From positions 62,001 through 126,000 of the forward strand of contig JAQGLT010000002.1 in assembly GCA_028292745.1 (NCBI GenBank): 64,000 bases of DNA, written 5' to 3'. Below the pieces are notes generated by a model. It ran no database searches. It was not told the DNA's origin and was given only the letters and a program-made list of their open reading frames with translations. Positions 7,103-20,334 of this stretch are shown in pieces. This DNA is from Polaromonas sp. Its GTDB lineage: Bacteria > Pseudomonadota > Gammaproteobacteria > Burkholderiales > Burkholderiaceae_C. A program made the position numbers and the translations under genes. Numbering within the stretch: the first letter of the stretch is position 1; each line of letters opens with the position of its first letter.

Positions 7103-8290
7103 TCAAGCCATTTTGCAGCCAACACCCGAATCGGACAGCGCCTTGGCGGCAATGCCGGTGACCTTGTTTTCCTTGTTTTCAACCACCCGCAGGTAGATGT
7201 CCTGCACCGGATTATGGGCTTTGCTCATGGTCCACTTGCCGCGCGGGCTGTCAATCGTGGCGCCTTCCATGGCCTTGTACAAGGCGGGCTTGGCCGACAA
7301 GTCCCCCTTGACCGCATTGGCCCCCTGGATAAGCAGCAATCCGGTGTCGTAACCCTGGACGGCATAGACATCTGGCTGGGCACGAAAGGCCTTGGCGTAA
7401 TCCAGCCGGAATTTCTTGTTGCGCGGTGTGTCCAGCGAATCGCTGTAGTGCATCGTGGTCACGATGCCTTCAGCGGCCGGGCCTGCTGCGTCGAGTACGC
7501 CTTCGGTCAGGAAGCCCGAACCATACAACGGAATCTTGCCTTTGAGGCCTGCCGCCGCATAGTCGCGGATGAACTTGGCCGCGCCGCCGCCTGCAAAAAA
7601 GCAGGCGACCGCGTCGGGTTTGAGTGCGGCGATCTCGGTCAGCAGCGCTTGAAATTCCACATTCGGGAAAGGCAGGCCCATCTCCTTGACGATGGTGCCG
7701 CCTGCTGCGGTATAGCTTTCCTTGAAACCCTCGAACGCTTCATCGCCGGCCGCATATTTCCAGGTGATCCAAACCGCTTTTTTATGCCCTTTGGCGACCA
7801 TAACCTGACCCAGGGCCCGAGTGGGCTGGGAATTGCTGAACGAGGTACGGAACACATTGGGCGCGCACAAGGCGCGTGTTGCCGCATGAACACCGGCGTT
7901 GGGAATCAGGCACAGTACGCCGCTGTCGCGTGCTACTTTCTGGATGCCCATCTGAACACCTGAATGGACGGTACCGACCAGCACGTCAACCTTGTCGCGC
8001 TGCACCAGCTTGTTGGCGTTTTCTATCCCCTTCGAGGGCTCTGACTCGTCGTCCACCTTGAAATACTCGATCTCCCGGCCGCCCAGCTTGCCACCCTGTT
8101 CATCAATGGCCATTCGAAAGCCATTTTCAATCGCCACGCCAAGCTGGCTGAACGTGCCTGTGTAAGGAAGCATGAAACCGACCCGAACCTTGCCCGACTG
8201 GGCACGAACAACTTGAGGCAGAAGCAATCCGGTGGATGCAGCGCTAATAACGGCAGCGCTTCGGGTAAGGAGAAGACGGCGAGTTGACAT
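7103..8290 (-). CDS. periplasmic substrate-binding protein of the liv-type transporter
   Basis: Type I periplasmic binding protein (Leu/Ile/Val-binding, peripla_BP_6 type), 395 residues. It has an N-terminal signal with a double Arg and a hydrophobic core (MSTRRLLLTRSAAVISAAS), ending near VVRAQ at about residue 29. The mature start, KVRVGFMLPYTGTFSQLG, is typical of the family. The start at 8290 follows AAGGAAA; the open frame 12 codons longer lacks such a site. It delivers ligand to LivHM. Many Comamonadaceae paralogues of this family bind aromatic or dicarboxylic acids, so leucine should not be assumed. Confidence 0.9.
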   Translation of the reverse strand: MSTRRLLLTRSAAVISAASTGLLLPQVVRAQSGKVRVGFMLPYTGTFSQLGVAIENGFRMAIDEQGGKLGGREIEYFKVDDESEPSKGIENANKLVQRDKVDVLVGTVHSGVQMGIQKVARDSGVLCLIPNAGVHAATRALCAPNVFRTSFSNSQPTRALGQVMVAKGHKKAVWITWKYAAGDEAFEGFKESYTAAGGTIVKEMGLPFPNVEFQALLTEIAALKPDAVACFFAGGGAAKFIRDYAAAGLKGKIPLYGSGFLTEGVLDAAGPAAEGIVTTMHYSDSLDTPRNKKFRLDYAKAFRAQPDVYAVQGYDTGLLLIQGANAVKGDLSAKPALYKAMEGATIDSPRGKWTMSKAHNPVQDIYLRVVENKENKVTGIAAKALSDSGVGCKMA

Positions 8291-8370
8291 AAAGCTTTCC
8301 TTTTTGAATGAACAGGTATGACCCAAATAATAAGAGGGTAAACCGTCTAACTGACTAGTGTAAAACCCGA

Positions 8371-8401
8371 GCTTTAGAGTTGAATTGTTTAGTTCTAAAG
8401 C
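8371..8401. promoter_or_regulatory. inverted repeat upstream of the binding-protein gene
   Basis: GCTTTAGA (8371-8378) and TCTAAAGC (8394-8401) form a perfect 8-bp inverted repeat 80 bp upstream of the binding-protein start. It is a candidate operator or hairpin. No regulator gene is adjacent, and the function is inferred from position only. Confidence 0.35.
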
Positions 8402-8537
8402 AAAACTGATGGCTTGAACAAGAATGCAGGCGCCGCAAAGTCCCTCAAGGAAGGTTTTCTACCCTCAGTTAGGTTCACCCGGCCATACCTAGCCTAGGAA
8501 CAACGCTACAGCATCCAAATGTTCGCTGGTTGAAAGT

Positions 8538-10776: not shown

Positions 10777-11206
10777 CTACATTGGCACGACCGGCGCCAC
10801 GGGCTCCGAAAACTGTTGAAACTCTGGAACCGATTCATGAATGGTGCTTAGAAACCGCGCAAGGATTTCTGCCACCACCGCCGCTTCAGCCGGCTCGTTA
10901 CCCCGCTCGGGTCGCGTGGTCGATCGCAATGCGGTCGGTAACCATAAGGCGCCCAAGTCCAGGGCAGCAGCACCCCCGGCCCGCAGCTTGGCGAGTCGGC
11001 CGCGCCGCATCCGCTCCGTAATGAGGGTGCGCTCGTATTCAGCCACGGCCCCGCGAATTTGTAGCAGCGACTGATCGTGCGGATCCTGGCTCATCGGCCA
11101 GTCCAAAAACTCGACTTGGCAGCCATGCTGTTCGAACTCTTTGAGCAGCAGCATTTGATGCACATAATTGCGCGCCAGCCGGTCAGGGGTGTCCACAGAA
11201 CCGGCA
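10777..11206 (-). pseudogene. serine site-specific recombinase fragment, frameshifted
   Basis: Internal part of a resolvase/invertase-type serine recombinase. The fragment TPDRLARNYVHQMLLLKEFE, then DPHDQSLLQIRGAVAEYERTL and ERMRRGRLAKLRAG, is typical of large serine recombinases. The N-terminal catalytic serine region is missing. After RAG the frame is lost at a run of C (10972-10976), and the conserved LLPWTWAPYGYR continues in another frame. Near 10895-10910 the reading returns to the first frame (EPAEAAVVAEI). So at least two frameshifts and an N-terminal truncation are visible. It is non-functional DNA left from an earlier element. Confidence 0.8.
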
Positions 11207-11237
11207 GCAGTCCAGTTATGCCGCGTAGCGGCCTGCG

Positions 11238-11504
11238 TCAATCGTCGTAGTGCCCACGGCACGCGATCACGTCAAAATCAACATCATCAGCGGCATAGAC
11301 CAAACGGTGTGTCTCGTCGATGCGCCTTGACCAGTAGCCTGCCAAGTTGCCCAGCAGCGGCTCTGGCTTCCCGATACCAGCGAAGGGGTCACGCCGCGCC
11401 GCTTCGATCAGGGTGTTGATGCGCTTCAAGGTCTTTTTGTCCTGTCCCTGCCACCAGGTGTAGTCTTCCCACGCTGCCGGGGTGAAGCGGATAGCACGGC
11501 TCAC
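11238..11504 (-). CDS. yoeB: YoeB-type toxin (ribosome-dependent mRNA interferase)
   Basis: RelE-superfamily endoribonuclease that cuts mRNA at the ribosomal A site when freed from its antitoxin. It has 88 residues, the usual size. KPEPL (residues 46-50), SRRIDETHRLVY and the C-terminal GHYDD carry the Glu, Arg and His-Tyr residues expected for catalysis. The reading frame is intact although both recombinase genes around it are broken. The ATG overlaps the antitoxin stop as ATGA (11504-11501), giving tight coupling. It is the toxin of the only complete gene pair left on the island. Confidence 0.93.
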   Translation of the reverse strand: MSRAIRFTPAAWEDYTWWQGQDKKTLKRINTLIEAARRDPFAGIGKPEPLLGNLAGYWSRRIDETHRLVYAADDVDFDVIACRGHYDD

Positions 11505-11758
11505 TCAGGATTGACCAGTTCGCGCCTCGCCGCCTTGCCCGCCTTGTGCTGCGCAATGGACTTGGCCAGGTGCGCTGCATTGGCTGGGGTTGCCAGCAAG
11601 TGCATGGTTTCCATGATGCTCTGGTAATGGTCAAGCGACATCACCACGGCGTCTGAACCGTCCCTGCGGCTGATGATGGTCACGTCAGCATCCTCATGCA
11701 CCGTATCAAGCACGGCTTTCAGCGAGCTACGCGCTTCGGAATAGGTAATGACTTTCAT
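11501..11758 (-). CDS. yefM: YefM/Phd-type antitoxin
   Basis: Antitoxin and autorepressor of YoeB, 85 residues. The N-terminal DNA-binding Phd/YefM fold reads MKVITYSEARSSLKAVLD, followed by DADVTIISRRDGSDAVVMS, both typical. The C-terminal half should wrap the toxin. A strong ribosome site (AAGGAGC) lies 7 bases before the ATG. A perfect 12-bp palindrome lies just upstream and is the likely operator. It is first in the two-gene operon, as is standard for the family. Confidence 0.93.
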   Translation of the reverse strand: MKVITYSEARSSLKAVLDTVHEDADVTIISRRDGSDAVVMSLDHYQSIMETMHLLATPANAAHLAKSIAQHKAGKAARRELVNPE

Positions 11759-11834: not shown

Positions 11835-13088
11835 TCACGCCGCCTTGAACTGGATGACTTCAGCCCCACTCCGCAGCTTGTCCAGGTAGCAGGCCCATTC
11901 AAGCATCATTACGCGCCGCTGCTCCATGAATTCGGCTCGGTCGTAGGCCATGCCCAGCGGCCCGGATTCGCCGTGAGCCAGCTGCGCCTCGATCACATCC
12001 GCAGAGATGCCGGGCATCCGCTCGATCATCAGCGTCCGGGCCGTGGCCCTGAACCCGTGGGCGCTCATCTCGTCTTGGCTGAAGCCCATGCGCCGCAGCG
12101 CCGCGTTGATGGTGATGTCGCTCATCGGCCTTTCACCCGTGCGCAGGCTAGGAAACACGTAGCGGCCATGCCCGGTCAGCGGTCGCAGCTCAGCCAGGTA
12201 GGCGAGGGCTTGTGGCGCCAGCGGTACCAGGTGAGGCCGGCCGTTGACCTTCTGGTGCTTGCGCCGCTTCATGTCCTGGCTCGGAATGGTCAGTAAGGCA
12301 TCGTCAACATTCACCCAGGCCCATTCCATCTGCCGGATGTTGCCAGGCCGCTGAAACAGCAGCGCCGACAGGGCCAGCGCCGCCTTGGTCATCGGTTGGC
12401 CGGAATAGCCGGCAATGGCCCGCATCAGTTCGCCCACCTTAAACGGCTCCAAGATGGCAGCCATGTGGGTGACATTGACTGGCTTCAGTGCGCCGTGCAG
12501 GTCCAGGGCAGGGCTGCGCTCACAGCGACCGGTCTGCACGCCATATAGAAACACTTGCCCGGCCGTCTGGCGCAGGGTGTGCGCAGTTTCGATAGCCCCG
12601 CGTTTTTCCACCCGGCGCAAGGCTTCCAGCAAGGCCGGGGCGGTAATGGCGGCCAGCGGTAAAGCTGGCCCAGGTAGGGAAACAGGTCTTTCTCAAGGCC
12701 GCGCAGCCACTTGGCGGCATACCCGGTTGACCAGTAATCGCCCTTGCTCTTGTGGAACTCCCGCGCTACCAGTTCGAAGGTGTTTGCCGCGGCTGCTGTC
12801 GTGGCGTGCTTTTCCTGGCGCTTGGCAAGGCTGGGGTCTATACCCGCCGCCAGCAGTTCGCGCGCCTTGTCGCGCCGTTGCTCTGGCCTTGGCCAGCGAT
12901 ACGGCTGGGTATGCACCCAGCGCCAGCGTCTTTCGCTTGTCGGCAAAGCGGTAATTCATACGCCAATACTTGCCGCTTGCGTTGACCAGCAGGTACATGC
13001 CGCCGCCGTCGGTGTGCTTGTCGCCTGCAGGTGCGCCGGTGGGTTTAATGTTCTTTGCGAACGTGTCGGTTAGCGGCATGGAGTCCAT
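11835..13088 (-). pseudogene. int: P4-type tyrosine integrase, two frameshifts
   Basis: Phage P4-family integrase, about 410 residues if repaired. The N-terminal DUF4102-type domain reads MPLTDTFAKNIKPTGAP, then DGGGMYLLV and KRKTLALGAYPAVSLAKAR. The frame then shifts near 12885 to RRDKARELLAAGIDPSLAKR and shifts again near 12660 after LFPYLGQL. The C-terminal catalytic domain has GNIRQMEW (Arg), HGFRATARTL (His-x-x-Arg), LAHGE (His) and AYDRAEF (Tyr), all present. The start is 13088 or 13079. It lies beside the tRNA-Arg 3' end. A sequencing error could mimic a frameshift, but two in one gene beside a second broken recombinase argues for decay. Confidence 0.85.
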
Positions 13089-13090
13089 TT

Positions 13091-13152
13091 GGCGGTATGT
13101 CTTCAGGCGGTAGTAGGAGATACCGCCATAAGTACCGCCGTTTTGGCGGTAT
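13091..13152. repeat. GGCGGTA array at right island end
   Basis: Five copies of an 8-mer GGCGGTAN lie within 62 bp: 13091, 13107 and 13145 on the plus strand and 13120 and 13132 inverted. The inner 20-mer (13120-13139) recurs at the left end of the island. The array lies directly upstream of the integrase start, so it may serve both as integrase arm sites and as integrase autoregulation sites. Confidence 0.6.
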
Positions 13153-13186
13153 GTCATGGTAGCCCTTGAGACTGTATGAGACAACA

Positions 13187-13221
13187 AAAAACCCGCTGCA
13201 CCTATGAGATACGCGGGTTTT
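13187..13221 (-). terminator. rho-independent terminator downstream of tRNA-Arg
   Basis: On the minus strand the stem AAAACCCGC/GCGGGTTTT with a 16-nt loop is followed by TTTTGTTG. It lies 33 bp beyond the tRNA 3' end. Because it is inside the island boundary, the element appears to supply the terminator for its host tRNA. Confidence 0.75.
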
Positions 13222-13253
13222 GAGGTGTTATGAGACGCTATGAAATGCGAATG

Positions 13254-13330
<77 letters not shown>

Positions 13331-13334
13331 ATAT

Positions 13335-13362
13335 AAAAAAAGCCCACTAAGTGAGCTTTTTT
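13335..13362 (-). terminator. hairpin between the two tRNA genes
   Basis: On the minus strand AGCTCAC-TTA-GTGGGCT pairs fully if one G-U pair is allowed, and is followed by TTTTTTT. It lies after tRNA-Pro and before tRNA-Arg. It could terminate most tRNA-Pro transcripts or act as a processing signal; no separate promoter for tRNA-Arg is obvious. Confidence 0.55.
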
Positions 13363-13372
13363 AAATTGAAAT

Positions 13373-13449
13373 TGGTCGGAGTACAAGGATTCGAACCTTG
13401 GACCCCCTGGTCCCAAACCAGGTGCGCTACCAGACTGCGCCACACTCCG
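13373..13449 (-). tRNA. tRNA-Pro (anticodon TGG)
   Basis: 77-nt cloverleaf including an encoded CCA. The acceptor stem is CGGAGTG/TACTCCG and the anticodon loop TTTGGGA carries TGG, with a standard TTCGAAT T-loop. It decodes CCA and other proline codons. It is upstream of tRNA-Arg on the same strand. Confidence 0.97.
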
Positions 13450-13460
13450 ACAAGTTGGTC

Positions 13461-13488
13461 ATTATAGTACGAAAATTTAAGCAAGCAG
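13461..13488 (-). promoter_or_regulatory. promoter of the tRNA-Pro gene
   Basis: A perfect TATAAT (-10) is at 13466-13461 on the minus strand, 12 bp before the tRNA. A weak CTGCTT (-35) is 16 bp further upstream at 13488-13483. The spacing and the perfect -10 fit a stable-RNA promoter. Confidence 0.6.
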
Positions 13489-13607
13489 TCTGCAAAGTCA
13501 TTTTTTGAGCAGCTACGCACGTCGTTTTTAGGGTGAAAATTCCGAGTATCGCTTCAGTGCTGAAAGCAGCAGGTGGCGAATGCTCGAATCCATGCAACGC
13601 TTTCATG

Positions 13608-14840
13608 CTATCGGCTCAATATCAATGTCCGCTTGCGCCAAGCCTCGGGCAATAAGTCAAACAGGGGACTGGGTTCGCGCTGCAGTTGCGGGCCTGCGCC
13701 AGCGGTAATGAGCAAAGGCCCATTTTTCGACAGATTCAACTGACTGAGTTCCTGCATCCACTGCACGTCGAGCTCGCCGGTCGGTGTCGGGCGGGAAAAA
13801 ATGAGTGCCAACATTCGCTTGGCTTGGGCACTTCCCTTGCTTTCAGCAAGCCGGTAGAGCCGGATGGCCTCGGCATAGTTGGCCGGCCGGCCTTCTCCGC
13901 GATGGAATCGTTGCGCATTGAGAAATAGCTCCTCGGCAGACAGCGATGCCGGCGAAGTGGATTCGCCTTTTTGCAGTTGAGCGGAAACATAAGAGAGATT
14001 GGCTGCGGCAACCGCCGATGTGCCCGAAGCTGCCTTGAAATACTCTTGGGCTTCGGTTAATCGCCCTTCGGCAACACTCAGCAGACCCAGTTCAATCCGG
14101 GCATTCACGTCGCCTCTTTGTGCTGAGCGCAGCAGCAACTCCCGCGCGGGCACAGACGCGCCGGCCACCGGCTGACCCGACTGGGGTGTCGCCAGCTGCA
14201 GGGGCGACAGACGGGATTCGACGACCCATTCCAGGAAATCGGCCCGTGCCGGATTGACGCTGCGCAGCAGTCCGATCCATCGGCGCGCGCCGCCCGGATC
14301 AGGTTGGCCCTTGCAACCCTCAATCTCACACCAAGCCAGGCCGGCACTGGACAGCGGCTCTCCCAGAGCCCGGGCGCGTTCAAACCACAAGGCTGCCTGA
14401 ACAGGATCACGCGTCACGCCCGAACCATGCAGATAAATCAGCCCGAGCAGCCACGCTGCCCTGGCGGCGCTGGCCGTTGCTGAGGTTCTCGGCAACGACG
14501 CACCGTTGGCGGAATTGGCAGAAGGGGTTCGAGGCAGGGCACTGGCCTGGGATTTGAGGCGCTGAATATCACGATTTGCTGCGGAATCATCAGGCCCCTG
14601 CATGCGAAGCGGGGCCGCAAGTGCAGGAGCCGGATCAAACTGCTGCGCTGGCTGCGCTCGAACCTGTGCGTGCACCACGCCCCAGCCGCCGATCAGCAGC
14701 AAGAGGAGGAGCGCCATGCCGATGGACGCCATTGCACGCAGGCGCCGCTTCTGTTCGGCCCTGCGATTGCAATGGTCGCGGTAGTCTTGGTTGTCCCAAT
14801 TAACGCGGCGTAGCGAATGCCTGTCAAAAAACAGTGTCAC
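13608..14840 (-). CDS. Sel1-like repeat membrane protein of the amyloid-like operon
   Basis: 410-residue protein with a cytoplasmic basic N-terminus and one membrane segment (about 39-57, leucine-rich). A long periplasmic part carries Sel1-like/TPR helical repeats, for example AAWLLGLIYLHGSGVTRDP with ALWFERARALGEP (about 130-165) and AEAIRLYRLAESKGSAQAKRML (about 320-345). Such repeats usually scaffold protein complexes. It is the last gene of a four-gene operon, 10 bp after the CsgG-like gene. No catalytic motif is visible. Its role in the operon is inferred to be assembly or regulation of secretion; no equivalent exists in the E. coli csg operons. Confidence 0.72.
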   Translation of the reverse strand: MTLFFDRHSLRRVNWDNQDYRDHCNRRAEQKRRLRAMASIGMALLLLLLIGGWGVVHAQVRAQPAQQFDPAPALAAPLRMQGPDDSAANRDIQRLKSQASALPRTPSANSANGASLPRTSATASAARAAWLLGLIYLHGSGVTRDPVQAALWFERARALGEPLSSAGLAWCEIEGCKGQPDPGGARRWIGLLRSVNPARADFLEWVVESRLSPLQLATPQSGQPVAGASVPARELLLRSAQRGDVNARIELGLLSVAEGRLTEAQEYFKAASGTSAVAAANLSYVSAQLQKGESTSPASLSAEELFLNAQRFHRGEGRPANYAEAIRLYRLAESKGSAQAKRMLALIFSRPTPTGELDVQWMQELSQLNLSKNGPLLITAGAGPQLQREPSPLFDLLPEAWRKRTLILSR

Positions 14841-14850
14841 GCCGTTCTCC

Positions 14851-16590
14851 TCAGTTAACAGCAGTTGCCGGCGCGGCTCGGCGGGGAATCACGTTCCATT
14901 GCATGGTCTGCTCGACATAACCGTTGTTGCCCAATGCCTGGGTAAACGCATCCTTGACACTTGCCATTCCCCGTACCCCGGGAATGACCGTTAACCCCTG
15001 GGCCTGCAGCGGAGCAGGAAGTTTTGGGAGCACATTTTGGTCCGTTGCAATGCAGCTCACGGTCTCGGTGCCTGGCGCGCCTGTATCGAGCACAAAGCCG
15101 GGCGTTGAGCTCATCCAGTCGGGAATTCTGATTGCCAGATTGGCCGATACCAGGGCCGATGGATTGGTTGCGTTGGGCAGCAATCGAATCACGTTGCCGC
15201 CGGCCTCGGATAAATAGCAGTAGAGGTAGGAGGCCTTGGAAAGCGTGGCGGACAGGAATATCTGCTGGCCTGATTCGAAAACGGTCTTGTCGACCACCGT
15301 GTTTTCAATTTGCATGTCAATCCGTGTCGGCTTGGCGGATGCGCCGTAAGGCACGGCGTTCGCCTCTGCAAGGAGGGTGTCATCTTCGCTGACGCTGTGG
15401 GGGCTCTTTGCGGCAGGCACACTAACGGCCAGGGGCTCTGAGGACATGGTGGACCAGCCAATTCGCGTCAATTTGCCATTTTCGTTCAGGCCGACAAAGT
15501 TTCGAAGGGTGCGCTCGTAAGTGGGGAAATCGACCACGCCTGAAGCAATCAGCCCGCTGTCAGCTTGAAAGCGGCCTAGCGCCACCCGGAATTCAGGGCT
15601 GTTGGCAGGCAGCTTGTCGCTGCCCGCACCCAGGTAGCCGTGGCTCATCAGCGAACGGGTGATCAGCCCCTGGTGGATGCCGGTATTGCCTTCGTCGTAC
15701 CAGTCGCGAAGCTGGCGCTGTATGTCCGGATGGGTTTGCTCCAGGGTCAGGCATTGCCAATAAGGCACCCGTGCCCATTTGCCCGTCAACTCGATCATGG
15801 CGACTTCGACCAAGGTGCGTATGGCCGCGCCTGAGCCCTGGGTATAGTCGCGCCCCACGTTGAACTTCCACCCATATTCGCTGATGCGGCCGGCCAGGTC
15901 CAGCCCTTGCCCGCTGTTTCCAACAACGACTTCATTCGCCGAATCAAGGCCCGGTATCAGGGTGCGGGTGCGAAAATCACCGAGGTGAAGCTCCAGACCG
16001 ATGATGGTTGCATTGCGGTTGCGGCTGTACCCGGTTTCGAGCCGGGAGGCAGAGGTGCCCACATCGAAGCGGTTGTTCAGCACGTTTTGATCGACAAATG
16101 CCACGGCCCCCGACACATAGATGGCTGGGCGCTGCAACTGGATCTGGTTGTTGTTCAGCAGGATGGTCGTGAGGTTTTGCACTGTGTCCTGGCGTGCAAT
16201 ATCAACTTCATAGTCAACATACCTGAAGGCATTACTCAAGCGGGACATTTGCGAGAGCGCCGTGACAATCATTTCCTTGGTGGCGACCGGCACGCGGGTA
16301 GAAATGTCGGGGATTTGCTTGCTGGCAATCAGAGTGGTGGGCAACTGGGTTGCCCGAAACAGCTGGTCCATGCACATCAGGGAATCGGAGAAGCTGGAGA
16401 TCGAGCGAACCGGCCTGCTGGTCGGACGGTTCGCCGCATGCCCGTAAGACCGGTATTCCGTGTCTTCCCTGGAGTCCATTGGCGTGGCGCAACCTGTCAG
16501 GAGCGTCAGAATTGAAAGAAGGGCAACACCCATCATTTGCTTGATGGGGTCTTTTGCTGCAGTTGTTGTGGTTGTTTCAGGCGTTCTCAT
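14851..16590 (-). CDS. CsgG-like outer-membrane lipoprotein with extra C-terminal domains
   Basis: 579-residue lipoprotein. The signal ends in a lipobox LLTGC (Cys34). Residues about 75-290 follow the layout of CsgG, the curli secretion pore: ATKEMIVTALSQMSR, then QRPAIYVSGAVAFVDQNV, then NATIIGLELHLGDFRTRTLI, then a closing helix TLVEVAMIELTGKWARVPYWQC. E. coli CsgG stops near 277 residues. This protein continues with a segment like a peptidoglycan-binding fold (about 330-375) and a DUF4384-like beta domain (about 425-540). The open frame reaches 40 codons further upstream, but the 16590 start gives the proper signal peptide. CsgG kinship is judged by pattern and order, not by a computed alignment. 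Confidence 0.72.
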   Translation of the reverse strand: MRTPETTTTTAAKDPIKQMMGVALLSILTLLTGCATPMDSREDTEYRSYGHAANRPTSRPVRSISSFSDSLMCMDQLFRATQLPTTLIASKQIPDISTRVPVATKEMIVTALSQMSRLSNAFRYVDYEVDIARQDTVQNLTTILLNNNQIQLQRPAIYVSGAVAFVDQNVLNNRFDVGTSASRLETGYSRNRNATIIGLELHLGDFRTRTLIPGLDSANEVVVGNSGQGLDLAGRISEYGWKFNVGRDYTQGSGAAIRTLVEVAMIELTGKWARVPYWQCLTLEQTHPDIQRQLRDWYDEGNTGIHQGLITRSLMSHGYLGAGSDKLPANSPEFRVALGRFQADSGLIASGVVDFPTYERTLRNFVGLNENGKLTRIGWSTMSSEPLAVSVPAAKSPHSVSEDDTLLAEANAVPYGASAKPTRIDMQIENTVVDKTVFESGQQIFLSATLSKASYLYCYLSEAGGNVIRLLPNATNPSALVSANLAIRIPDWMSSTPGFVLDTGAPGTETVSCIATDQNVLPKLPAPLQAQGLTVIPGVRGMASVKDAFTQALGNNGYVEQTMQWNVIPRRAAPATAVN

Positions 16591-16613
16591 GGTATTTTTT
16601 CTTTTGAGAGGCA

Positions 16614-16675
16614 AAAAAAGCGCCGTGGCAGCGCCAACATATCCGCCGTCCAGTGAGGGCGGCGTTTTTCCAAGC
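16614..16675 (-). terminator. GC-rich hairpins before the CsgG-like gene
   Basis: On the minus strand two GC-rich inverted repeats (CGCCGCCC/GGACGGCG and a short GCGC stem) end in TTTTTTT, in the 94-bp gap between the small exported protein and the CsgG-like gene. A leaky terminator here would give more of the upstream structural proteins than of the secretion proteins. Confidence 0.5.
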
Positions 16676-16684
16676 AAACCTGTC

Positions 16685-17116
16685 CTACCTGCAAATGTTG
16701 ACGAGGTCACCTCGCAGAACCACGATTTGCTGCTGGCCGCTGATGCCTTTGCTGCCCATGGTGCCTCCTGCGGATGAAATGCTGCCTACTTCCTGTACGC
16801 AGGTCTTGCTCATTCCTTGCGAGCTGGCTGTGTTGACAACGTCGTTATTTGTAAGAATCGTGCCGTCGTTGGCAGTGCCGGAGAAAGCCTTTGCTTCGTA
16901 CCGCGCAACGCGTGCCTTCATCCATGCAGGCAGGTCATGACTGCCGTCCATTTGCCCCGATTTTTGCAATGCGCCGCCAGGCAGGTTCAGGTGGCGTACA
17001 GGGGCAGATAGTTTTACCGGATCTTCACCGGGTACTTGCTGCGCCATCGCGGGCACTGCACTTCCCAGCGCCAACAGGACAAGGGCATTCTTCAGTGTGG
17101 TAAGTGTGTTGACCAT
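16685..17116 (-). CDS. small exported protein of the amyloid-like operon
   Basis: 143 residues with a clear signal peptide (cleavage after about residue 25, AMA). The start at 17116 follows GGAG at proper spacing; the 20-codon longer frame would spoil the signal. The mature part is Gly/Ser/Asn-rich in its C-terminal half (TANDGTILTNNDVVNTASSQG, then SISSAGGTMGSKG) and has only two cysteines, which could pair. I recognise no family. Its position between the repeat protein and the CsgG-like pore matches that of a minor subunit, nucleator or CsgE/F-like accessory factor. I see no sequence similarity to CsgE or CsgF. Confidence 0.7.
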   Translation of the reverse strand: MVNTLTTLKNALVLLALGSAVPAMAQQVPGEDPVKLSAPVRHLNLPGGALQKSGQMDGSHDLPAWMKARVARYEAKAFSGTANDGTILTNNDVVNTASSQGMSKTCVQEVGSISSAGGTMGSKGISGQQQIVVLRGDLVNICR

Positions 17117-17207
17117 GCCTAAGCTCCAGGTTAAAACAAGGATTGGCACCTTCTGCGCAATACAGAAGAGTGCCAATTTCCAACTTCTTATGCCATCAAG
17201 GCGGCAA

Positions 17208-17636
17208 TCATTGGCAGGTTACGCAAGCGTTGTTGGAAGAAACGTTCTGCACCGCAACCGTACCGGCGCCAGCTTGGTTACTTACCAGGGCCAGTGTCAA
17301 ACCAACGCTCTGATTGGAGTCACCCACAATGTTGACTTCACCATAGTTGGAAGCCAGGTTCTGGGTTGCCCGGGCGAAAGCGCCACTGGCAGAGTTGGCA
17401 ACGATTGCTCCCCTGCCTGCGACTGACTGATTGGAATTGCCACTGATTTCAATGGTTCCAGAGTTGCTTGCCAGGTTTTGCACAGCCCTGGCACCAATGC
17501 CACTGGATGTATTGAGCGTGGCGCCCAGGATCATGGAGGTCGACTGGGTTGAGGTGCCGATGATGTTGATAACGGGGTCACCCGCGAAGGCAGAGGTTGC
17601 GAGGGCGGCAAAAGCGATGAGTACGAGTTTTTTCAT
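17208..17636 (-). CDS. exported Asn/Gln/Ser repeat protein, candidate amyloid subunit
   Basis: 142 residues with a strong signal peptide (cleavage after about residue 18, SAFA). The mature part is three repeats: 20-59, 60-98 and 99-135. Their shared pattern is GxIxIxGxSNQSV, about 12 variable Gly/Ala/Ser residues with AxVxN, then AxAxQNLASN. Alternating beta-prone residues with ladders of Asn, Gln and Ser at fixed positions is the hallmark of curlin-type amyloid subunits, although the repeat is longer than the 22-residue CsgA unit. A short tail ends ACVTCQ. It is the first gene of the operon, with ribosome site GGGAG. Function is inferred; it is not a recognised named family. Confidence 0.72.
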   Translation of the reverse strand: MKKLVLIAFAALATSAFAGDPVINIIGTSTQSTSMILGATLNTSSGIGARAVQNLASNSGTIEISGNSNQSVAGRGAIVANSASGAFARATQNLASNYGEVNIVGDSNQSVGLTLALVSNQAGAGTVAVQNVSSNNACVTCQ

Positions 17637-18037
17637 GGTGAGCTCCCAAAAAGTTGACTGACATTGATCAGATGGACCGAAAACTTCAGCCCAGCCGGTT
17701 GGTTTGACATTGCTGACAGGAAGTTGGTTTGTCATTTGTTCGCTGCTTGCTTTGTCGAGTTCAGTTTCGTGGGGGATTCAAAACTCATCAATAACCCCAA
17801 CTAGCTACACAGTTGGCTGTGTAAGGAATTGCCCTTTCGTGTTATTTCGAATGGTTGTGCTTCTCAAAGGCTGGTATGGCTTATCTCCATCGAGGGGTTT
17901 ACCTGTTGAGTAATGAAGGTAGTAATTTGCGGAAAGCTCAGCAATTTCTTGTAACTTTTGCGCTTGTTGATGGCTTTTGAATCTGGATTTAGGCACTTAT
18001 TTGGGGCAGAAACACCAAATTAGAGACAGTGATTTAT

Positions 18038-18079
18038 GCATGGAAAACAACCTGTCACGTGAGAAATTATTTTCAATGC
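18038..18079. repeat. 42-bp imperfect palindrome centred on CACGTG
   Basis: The two 21-base arms match at 16 positions; three of the five mismatches would be G-U pairs in a minus-strand RNA. The centre is TCACGTGA. It lies about 400 bp upstream of the amyloid-like repeat gene. It may be a dimeric regulator site, an RNA hairpin or the remnant of a small transposable element. Confidence 0.55.
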
Positions 18080-18318
18080 CCACTTTGAACAGCTGCATTG
18101 CTGAGCTGTATTGCCACGGATTGAGCATGCGCGAGCATGTACAGAGAGGCGCGAGAGTGAACCCCTGACCGGCAAACAGCCTCACATTTCCTGTTCGCCA
18201 GTGCCACGCTTGGCGCCTTCTTGCGCCGGGACAAGGAAAAAGAACCGGGAAGGCCGGGAAAATTGCGCCTATGGCTTATCAAGACGCCTGAGTGAGAAAT
18301 GCCTGCGCTGCTTGCAAC

Positions 18319-18346
18319 TGTCATTTCCGCCTTCGCGGAAATGACA
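18319..18346. repeat. REP-like hairpin
   Basis: A perfect 12-bp stem with a CTTC loop: GTCATTTCCGC at 18320-18330 against GCGGAAATGAC at 18335-18345, plus one outer pair. It resembles the short REP palindromes with GTCATTCCCGCGAA-type cores found in many proteobacteria. Confidence 0.6.
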
Positions 18347-18516
18347 CGGGCGATCAACGTCTGAAACACGTAGTTGATCGGGCCAAAACAGGATGCCGCG
18401 CAGGCAGAGCCTGCACATACAGCTATGAGTTCAGGAGCGATTAGCTGCTGGCTTTTGCTGTTGCCCCTCAGGGTGAAGCTGCTCTAGAAGCGAAGGTCAC
18501 GCAAGAAGATTGATGA

Positions 18517-20334
18517 TCACGTTCTGGCACGTGGCAGATAAAGGGTAAACACTGATCCACGGCCCACTTCGCTAACAACCCTGACATGACCGCCTGATTC
18601 CTTGGCGAAACCAAAGACTTGGCTTAACCCAAGGCCGGTCCCTTTTCCCGCAGGTTTGGTCGTAAAAAAAGGCTTGAAAATCGCGTCGAGCTTTTCCGCT
18701 GGAATGCCGCAGCCAGTGTCGGCTATCGAAATTGCCACAAAGTCCCTGGGCTGGAGTTCACTGCCAGCGTCAGGTGGCAGGTCGTTTGCCGGTTGTACCT
18801 GAATGCTGATCTGTCCCTTGCCATTCATGGCGTCTGCGGCATTGACCAAGAGGTTCACCAGTGCGGTTTCGAACTGGCTGATATCGCCTGTTGCAAAGTA
18901 CGCATCTTCCTTCGGCTGCTCCAGATGGATCAGCACGTTCGTCCCCAGGAGCGGGCGCACCAGCTCGACCACGCTTTGCACCTGCAGCGCCACGTCGAAT
19001 ACTTCAGGCCTGAAGGGCTCCTGCCGGGTAAAGGCCAGCAAATGGGCCGTCAGCTTGGTGGCACGCTCGGCGGTGTCAAAAATACGATCCATGTAGCGCA
19101 CGCGCTGCTCGACCGGCACGTTGTCAGCGCGCACCAGCTGGATGCATACGCTGATGATGCCCAGGAGGTTGTTGAAGTCGTGCGCAATACTGCTGGTGAG
19201 CTGCCCCAGGACATCGAGCTTTTGCGACTGGCGCAATACACCTTCCAGGCGCAGCAGCTCGTCGGTACGCTGGTCGAGTTGGCTGTTCATCTCGCGCAGG
19301 GTAAGTTCTGCCTGAAGCCGCTGCAATGATGCCCAGGTGCGTTCGGCGACGGCTTCGACCAATGCCTGCTCGCTGTCCGTCCAGACACGTGGCTGGGGGC
19401 TGTGCACAAATAAGATGGCGGCGAGGTGACCCTCCTTGACAAGGGGGGCAAGGAGGTACGCACCGGGATGAGGCGGGGCGCCCATTGCCTGATGGGCTGC
19501 AGCTGATTTCGGCAATTCAGCGCTTGCATCGTTGACTGCCACGGTCTGGCCTGCCAGCAGCCGTGCGGCTACTGACGGCGAAATCTCGTCGAGTTGATGG
19601 GGGAGCAAAGCGTAGCCTTCGGCACACTCAGGATGCCACCGCACCGAGCCTTGGTGGATGTCGACCTCGCCATAGCACACGCAATCCGTACCCAGGAATT
19701 GGCCCAGGGTCTTTGCCACGGTTGCCATCAAGGTGGGCGGATCATTGATGCCCCGCTGGGCAATGCCAAGTTCGGCCCAGAAAGTGTGCTGGCGATGGGC
19801 CTGGACCTGCTGCTGCTCGGCCAATACTTTTTCGGTCTTGTCGATGGGCAAGCAATAAACACCGGCCACCGCGCCGTTGTCATCGCGAAGCGGCATGAAG
19901 CACAGCGACCACCAACTCGGTGTGTCGGTGCCGTTTCGGTTCAGCGTGAGGGGCATGTTCTCGTAGTAAGAACCCTTGCCAGCCAGTGCATTGCTGACAA
20001 TCGGCTCCAGATCGCTCCACACGTCAGACCACAGCTCGGTAGCAGGGTGGCCCAGAAATCCGTCGAAGCGGCCACCCATCATGTCGCGGTAGCTGTCGTT
20101 GAAAAAAGAAAGCAGTTCGGGCCCCCACGCCACAATCGTTGGCTGCGGGCTGGTAAGAATGGTCGCCAAAATCGTTTTTAACGCATTTGGCCAGGTCTGG
20201 GGCGCGCCAAGTGACGTGCTCATCCAGTCCTGACGACTGATGAGTGCGCCGATGTCCCCGCCGTTGACCAAAAACCCAGGCACTTGGGCGGACAATGCAT
20301 GCGCATCGGCCTGTGGAGGTGAAGGTGTCGTCAT
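18517..20334 (-). CDS. PAS-GAF sensor histidine kinase, orphan
   Basis: 605-residue soluble two-component kinase. A PAS-like domain lies at about 30-170 (QPTIVAWGPELLSFFNDSYRDMMG), a GAF-like domain at about 185-345 and a coiled linker to 375. The H-box SSIAHDFNNLLG has the phospho-acceptor His385. N-box NLLVNAADAM, G1 DTGCGIP, F-box FKPFFTTK and G2 GTGLGLSQ are all intact. No membrane segment is seen, so it senses a cytoplasmic signal. No response regulator is next to it. It lies upstream of the amyloid-like operon on the same strand, but the 880-bp gap makes a direct operon unlikely. Confidence 0.88.
   Translation of the reverse strand: MTTPSPPQADAHALSAQVPGFLVNGGDIGALISRQDWMSTSLGAPQTWPNALKTILATILTSPQPTIVAWGPELLSFFNDSYRDMMGGRFDGFLGHPATELWSDVWSDLEPIVSNALAGKGSYYENMPLTLNRNGTDTPSWWSLCFMPLRDDNGAVAGVYCLPIDKTEKVLAEQQQVQAHRQHTFWAELGIAQRGINDPPTLMATVAKTLGQFLGTDCVCYGEVDIHQGSVRWHPECAEGYALLPHQLDEISPSVAARLLAGQTVAVNDASAELPKSAAAHQAMGAPPHPGAYLLAPLVKEGHLAAILFVHSPQPRVWTDSEQALVEAVAERTWASLQRLQAELTLREMNSQLDQRTDELLRLEGVLRQSQKLDVLGQLTSSIAHDFNNLLGIISVCIQLVRADNVPVEQRVRYMDRIFDTAERATKLTAHLLAFTRQEPFRPEVFDVALQVQSVVELVRPLLGTNVLIHLEQPKEDAYFATGDISQFETALVNLLVNAADAMNGKGQISIQVQPANDLPPDAGSELQPRDFVAISIADTGCGIPAEKLDAIFKPFFTTKPAGKGTGLGLSQVFGFAKESGGHVRVVSEVGRGSVFTLYLPRART

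Follow-up and report, generated by a model that had tools for sequence, protein, structure and literature searches.

What does a bacterium make with a CsgG-like lipoprotein encoded beside an exported, asparagine- and glutamine-rich repeat protein, and is the product curli? The question is raised by a four-gene operon in a 64,000-nucleotide stretch of DNA (hereafter the window) from Polaromonas sp. (GenBank assembly GCA_028292745.1, contig JAQGLT010000002.1, positions 62,001 to 126,000 of the forward strand), which an initial annotation, made from the sequence alone, had read as a divergent curli-type functional amyloid system. We consider it probable that the operon encodes a curli-like system for the secretion and assembly of a surface fibre, albeit one outside the curli family as it is currently recognised. 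The annotated gene order and strand are borne out; all four genes lie on the minus strand and, in order of transcription, are:

17208..17636, minus strand: fibre-subunit candidate, exported, 142 amino acids (aa), with three 39-residue repeats, a QN.[AS]SN motif and a C-terminal CxxC (repeat test, AlphaFold2 model)
16685..17116, minus strand: small exported protein, about 143 aa, with a PGEDP-type stretch and two invariant Cys (open reading frame (ORF), alignment)
14851..16590, minus strand: lipoprotein, pore candidate, 579 aa (lipobox, profiles, predicted fold)
13608..14840, minus strand: Sel1-repeat protein, 410 aa, with one N-terminal hydrophobic segment recognised by eye (Pfam Sel1, E 1e-11)

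The lipoprotein has the proper lipobox (LLTGC) that had been claimed for it, with Cys34 invariant across 27 aligned lipoproteins, and is made up of a CsgG/HfaB-type core (approximately residues 61-283), a peptidoglycan-binding-like stretch (approximately 328-359, E 0.063) and a DUF4384 domain (approximately 438-518). Its predicted structure is the CsgG fold: the best CsgG entry scored 4 Z units over PelC, and the lowest of eight CsgG entries still 1.6 over. Two low-confidence segments of the model (mature residues 135-158 and 192-217) appear, as judged by eye, to sit where CsgG has its membrane hairpins. Thus the CsgG-like reading stands as regards fold; as regards family it does not, for the lipoprotein has no match to the CsgG profile PF03783, and none is listed among the 27 members at E 0.5. 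The closest profile is that of HfaB, with a weak score (NCBIfam NF037935, 18.6 bits where the cut-off is 300); 24 of the 27 members match it at E 0.5 or below, with a best E of 1.2e-6. Matches in PHROG were found for the pore candidate (1.2e-7), the Sel1 protein (1.3e-12) and the subunit candidate (0.012); a phage search with the pore was empty.

The first gene product is, as the annotation had it, an exported protein of three Asn/Gln-rich repeats: a signal peptide is recognised by eye, self-identity at an offset of 39 residues is 0.36, a value reached by none of 200 shuffles, and N, Q, S, T or G make up 53% of the mature chain. It is predicted to fold as a beta-solenoid with about four strands per repeat (predicted local distance difference test score 91.8, predicted template modelling score 0.82), so that a beta-structured and secreted product, on which the annotation had staked its reading, is what the model and the export signal indicate. 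Among 79 repeat proteins the QN.[AS]SN-type motifs are spaced 37-41 residues apart in 159 of 177 intervals; strict motif counts run from 1 to 7 per protein, with three motifs in 46 of the 79. Filtering the 79 by length left 54, of which 46 were chosen and aligned with the window subunit; the C-terminal CxxC is kept in 46 of these 47 three-repeat forms. Profile searches gave no convincing family match, curlin and HfaA included; a mushroom lectin-like protein, matched by the subunit-family profile in the PDB (E 0.004) over about one and a half repeats, was judged a chance hit. The subunit gene is single-copy in its own genome; tandem pairs of differing sequence are seen in two Polaromonas metagenome-assembled genomes (L109, 4242-5418; L113, 4326-5391), and may possibly represent a major and a minor subunit, by analogy with CsgA and CsgB. 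Export and surface assembly are the reading favoured by this pairing, in which a repetitive, N/Q-rich solenoid with an export signal is encoded together with a lipoprotein of the CsgG fold.

Is this pairing peculiar to the window? Of 250 genomes sampled from the family, 54 have a match to the lipoprotein at E 1e-3, distant forms counted; G099 and G200, which belong to the window's own genus, have none. In 40 regions taken from these matches, all four genes stood in order at the window's own locus and 26 others (L031-L057; in L055 the Sel1 gene is split over two ORFs). A second scan, of the best 80 of 99 named loci, mostly from Comamonadaceae and including Polaromonas, Hydrogenophaga, Acidovorax, Limnohabitans, Delftia, Comamonas and Ottowia, found the full set in 73, with order taken by stop codons; the other seven (L086, L088, L122, L131, L136, L143 and L148) are broken by contig ends. 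The two sets overlap and their counts are not additive. The same order thus recurs in other Comamonadaceae, where the initial annotation had proposed to look for it, and the operon is conserved in freshwater and soil bacteria. We found no description of it among the matches listed in an open-access subset of the literature, preprints excluded.

Of the two remaining proteins, the small exported one gave no family match above chance level in profile searches. Its likelier start is the ATG one codon 5′ of the GTG used in the alignments; the conserved PGEDP-type stretch lies close to the mature N terminus, and the invariant cysteines are C105 and C141 (142-aa numbering). The Sel1 repeats of the fourth protein are confirmed by its Pfam match; its gene is found in 76 of the 80 relatives, the remaining four being cut at contig ends, and the protein is constant within this close group, while it was not recognised in the distant loci L060-L064.

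Next to more distant pores, which are 25-41% identical in the cases measured, repetitive exported proteins are again encoded, and these share little sequence (L058, L059, L060, L061, L062, L064, L200, L201, L204 and, on an Azospirillum lipoferum plasmid, L217). The best period was 34-38 in nine of the ten distant repeat proteins tested; in L060 it was 71, about twice 35, and was equalled by 6 of 200 shuffles. Among the ORFs read, no repeat protein was recognised in L063 or in Azospirillum ramasamyi (L216). The two Azospirillum pores show 31% and 30% identity over 89% and are annotated as DUF4384 only. A small Cys-pair protein was detected by profile in L059 (E 1.2e-8), L058 (9.4e-7), L061 (0.0019), L201 (0.0025) and L200 (0.0084), and by eye in L060 and L217; the profile did not find it in L062, L063, L064 or L204. 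In a class-wide sample 23 of 321 genomes were matched, the window's own included, and 16 of the other 22 matches cover the C-terminal domains only. Several distant loci have further features beside the pore: L058 (7562-8386) and L059 (8672-9454) encode, next to the pore and Sel1 genes, one more exported protein, in which the stretch IN.A.G.GAVA.QN resembles the subunit, followed in L059 by what by eye is a short LuxR-type regulator; L062 (7959-9431) and L064 (4133-5584) have large exported repeat proteins (490 and 483 aa) immediately 5′ of the pore, that of L064 with weak LpxA profile matches. A further lipoprotein group, L065-L070, has a CsgG-like core at approximately 24-26% identity.

How, then, does the operon stand to known systems? 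With curli it shares a lipoprotein of predicted CsgG fold, a small exported N/Q-rich repeat subunit, a variable number of repeats and the clustering of its genes. It differs in that the window subunit lacks the curlin motif QxGx2N and has a period of 39 residues as against approximately 23 (the curlin repeat is given as 23 +/- 5 residues, PMC10192328), in that the lipoprotein is much longer than CsgG, with its DUF4384 and peptidoglycan-binding-like stretch, and in the extra Sel1 gene. The curli-type reading thus holds for the predicted pore fold and the exported, predicted solenoid, and is not supported for family membership. Could this nevertheless be a true Csg operon, degenerate to the point that its curlin repeats and Csg factors have drifted past recognition? 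The CsgG fold and the exported, N/Q-rich repeats would be expected of one, canonical csgBAC operons are reported in Burkholderiaceae (PMC12822426), and every one of the three repeats in the distant L061 subunit (8050-8406, minus strand) contains QxGx2N; this subunit is possibly, by its sequence, a link between the module and curlins, and counts against a sharp line from curli. Yet the motif is found in only 1 of 47 close subunit relatives and is absent from the other ten checked, and ten distant subunits, L061 included, have no curlin match listed at E 0.5. Profile searches of the genome assembly, which is 88.4% complete so that a missed copy is possible, gave no match to curlin (PF07012), CsgG, CsgE or CsgF, in agreement with the earlier remark that the latter two are unrecognisable; the controls for CsgE and CsgF found E. 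coli. Across 150 genomes of the family PF03783 has a strong match (E ~1e-64) in 3 and some match in 57, which indicates that the family has separate CsgG genes that can be recognised as such. For Betaproteobacteria, PMC3521004 describes two curli systems, each from Burkholderiales, and regards unspecific CsgG matches as likely paralogs. We think a degenerate Csg operon highly improbable.

A stronger competitor, which we nonetheless hold to be unlikely, is a complex resembling HfaABD, the holdfast anchor of Caulobacter, in which a short surface multimer would tether a polysaccharide or other matrix component and no long fibre would be made. By sequence profile the pore comes nearest to HfaB, the pore gene likewise lies beside genes for small exported proteins, and three-repeat subunits are short; moreover HfaA is CsgA-like and forms multimers resistant to sodium dodecyl sulphate and heat, and HfaB is required for the targeting of HfaA and HfaD (PMC6707917). 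Against this, the HfaB score is far below its cut-off and the DUF4384 and peptidoglycan-binding stretches fall outside the 264-position HfaB model, neither the subunit nor the small protein has an HfaA-named profile listed at the thresholds applied (no separate search was made for HfaD), and motif counts reaching seven in some relatives would suit a fibre. It is less likely still that the lipoprotein, with a core domain resembling CsgG of the kind also present in PelC and FlgT, exports nothing and acts as a scaffold in the periplasm or outer membrane, the repeat protein then being a common soluble beta-solenoid that binds, for instance, ice or a ligand. Against this stand the margin of the CsgG entries over PelC, the two long low-confidence insertions between strands at what are, by eye, the expected hairpin places, and the fixed pairing of the pore with a repetitive exported protein. 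To Fap the operon is similar in repeat length and, by eye, in an N..A.G...QN pattern, and FapC was the sole Foldseek match of the subunit at E 1e-3 or below, with a weak structural score; it differs in that the subunit has no FapC profile match in a PDB sequence search, the pore is of predicted CsgG-type fold (FapF was not searched for) and the gene order is unlike fap.

Returning to the curli-like fibre system, we propose that the subunit and the small protein would reach the periplasm by Sec, and that the lipoprotein would form a CsgG/HfaB-type ring in the outer membrane, which its C-terminal extra part could tie to the cell wall. With neither CsgE nor CsgF found, their work may fall to the fused domains and to the small protein: the C-terminal part of the lipoprotein could replace the missing CsgE adaptor, and the best candidate for a plug, nucleator or anchor is the small protein, whose N terminus is conserved and which has the Cys pair, while the Sel1 protein might be a membrane-bound periplasmic helper. 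The subunit would cross the pore unfolded and fold outside as a short beta-solenoid, and such solenoids may stack end to end, probably into an amyloid-like fibre; the amyloid function is an inference, as the initial annotation also had it.

Expression of the subunit above the pore had been argued from a leaky terminator before the pore gene. Three elements bear on expression:

16619..16635, minus strand: terminator-like hairpin with a T-run, between the small gene and the pore gene (scan; not conserved)
17140..17181, minus strand: stem-loop 3′ of the subunit gene, a candidate for differential expression (stretch z -2.3; 4 of 200 shuffles fold equally well)
17762..17807, minus strand: candidate promoter/operator element 5′ of the operon, TAGCTAGTTGGGGTTATTG ... 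GAAACTG (score 7.0, under the threshold of 8.5)

The hairpin before the pore gene exists, but the stretch that holds it folds unremarkably (z -0.46), terminator-like sites in the region are at shuffle level (7 observed versus 6.6), and under a stricter test a terminator before the pore gene is found in 1 of 68 relatives. The stem-loop after the subunit gene backs the high-subunit, low-pore argument better: there a hairpin beats all 20 shuffles in 46 of 77 relatives (after the small gene, in 10 of 75), and terminator-like hairpins occur in 16 of 77 versus 1.7 expected, in shuffles that preserve base composition only and with the window excluded from the relatives. This stem-loop would let the subunit exceed the pore. 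Upstream, an element TA.CC..TT..GG.GATTGG - GA[AC]ACTG reaches threshold in 48 of 75 regions (window included, its own copy falling below) versus a mean of 1.2 in first-order resamples, having been discovered and scored on the same, related and so not independent, sequences; TA.C[CT], a part kept out of the score, is found in 34 of 75 versus 1.9. A search for a regulon of this element in its own genome gave 11 sites versus 12 with a reversed control, which amounts to nothing. A loose sigma-54 pattern occurs in 3 of the 75 regions (shuffle mean 0.15), and strict sigma-54, FliA, sigma-70 and extended -10 patterns in none. Further 5′ lies a PAS-GAF sensor histidine kinase gene (18517-20334, minus strand).

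On its other side the operon is bordered by tRNA-Arg and tRNA-Pro (13254-13449), the only features above cut-offs in an Rfam scan of 13000-18600, beside a tyrosine integrase in pieces (11835-13187, minus strand), with the Arm-DNA-binding domain in one ORF and the central and catalytic domains in another. Among 42 of the 80 loci scanned for such linkage, L098 has the same Arg/Pro pair, L102 a transfer-messenger RNA and the other 40 neither, so the tRNA position is not general. Beyond the integrase are a YefM/YoeB-type toxin-antitoxin pair (11238-11758, minus strand; Pfam E 6e-21 and 9.1e-37) and a resolvase fragment (10777-11262, minus strand), whose match to the model of the resolvase N-terminal domain is confined to positions 69-144.

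We further suggest, at somewhat less than even chances, that the operon represents a third, unnamed class of functional amyloid, with 34-39-residue repeats (layers of FapC size rather than curlin arches) and a CsgG/HfaB-type pore whose own cell-wall anchor and DUF4384 replace CsgE and CsgF, common in Comamonadaceae and with other-repeat versions elsewhere in Pseudomonadota, including Azospirillum. The survey of PMC12822426 searches GTDB by means of models for the repeats of curlin and Fap, which the operon's repeats would probably not pass; as it sought these repeats near known genes, a system with other repeats would probably be missed. If our reading is true, common freshwater, soil and wastewater bacteria would have a fibre system that has so far gone uncounted, and a single family of pores would serve several dissimilar repeat sequences of approximately one size, which would make substrate recognition by CsgG-type pores directly testable.
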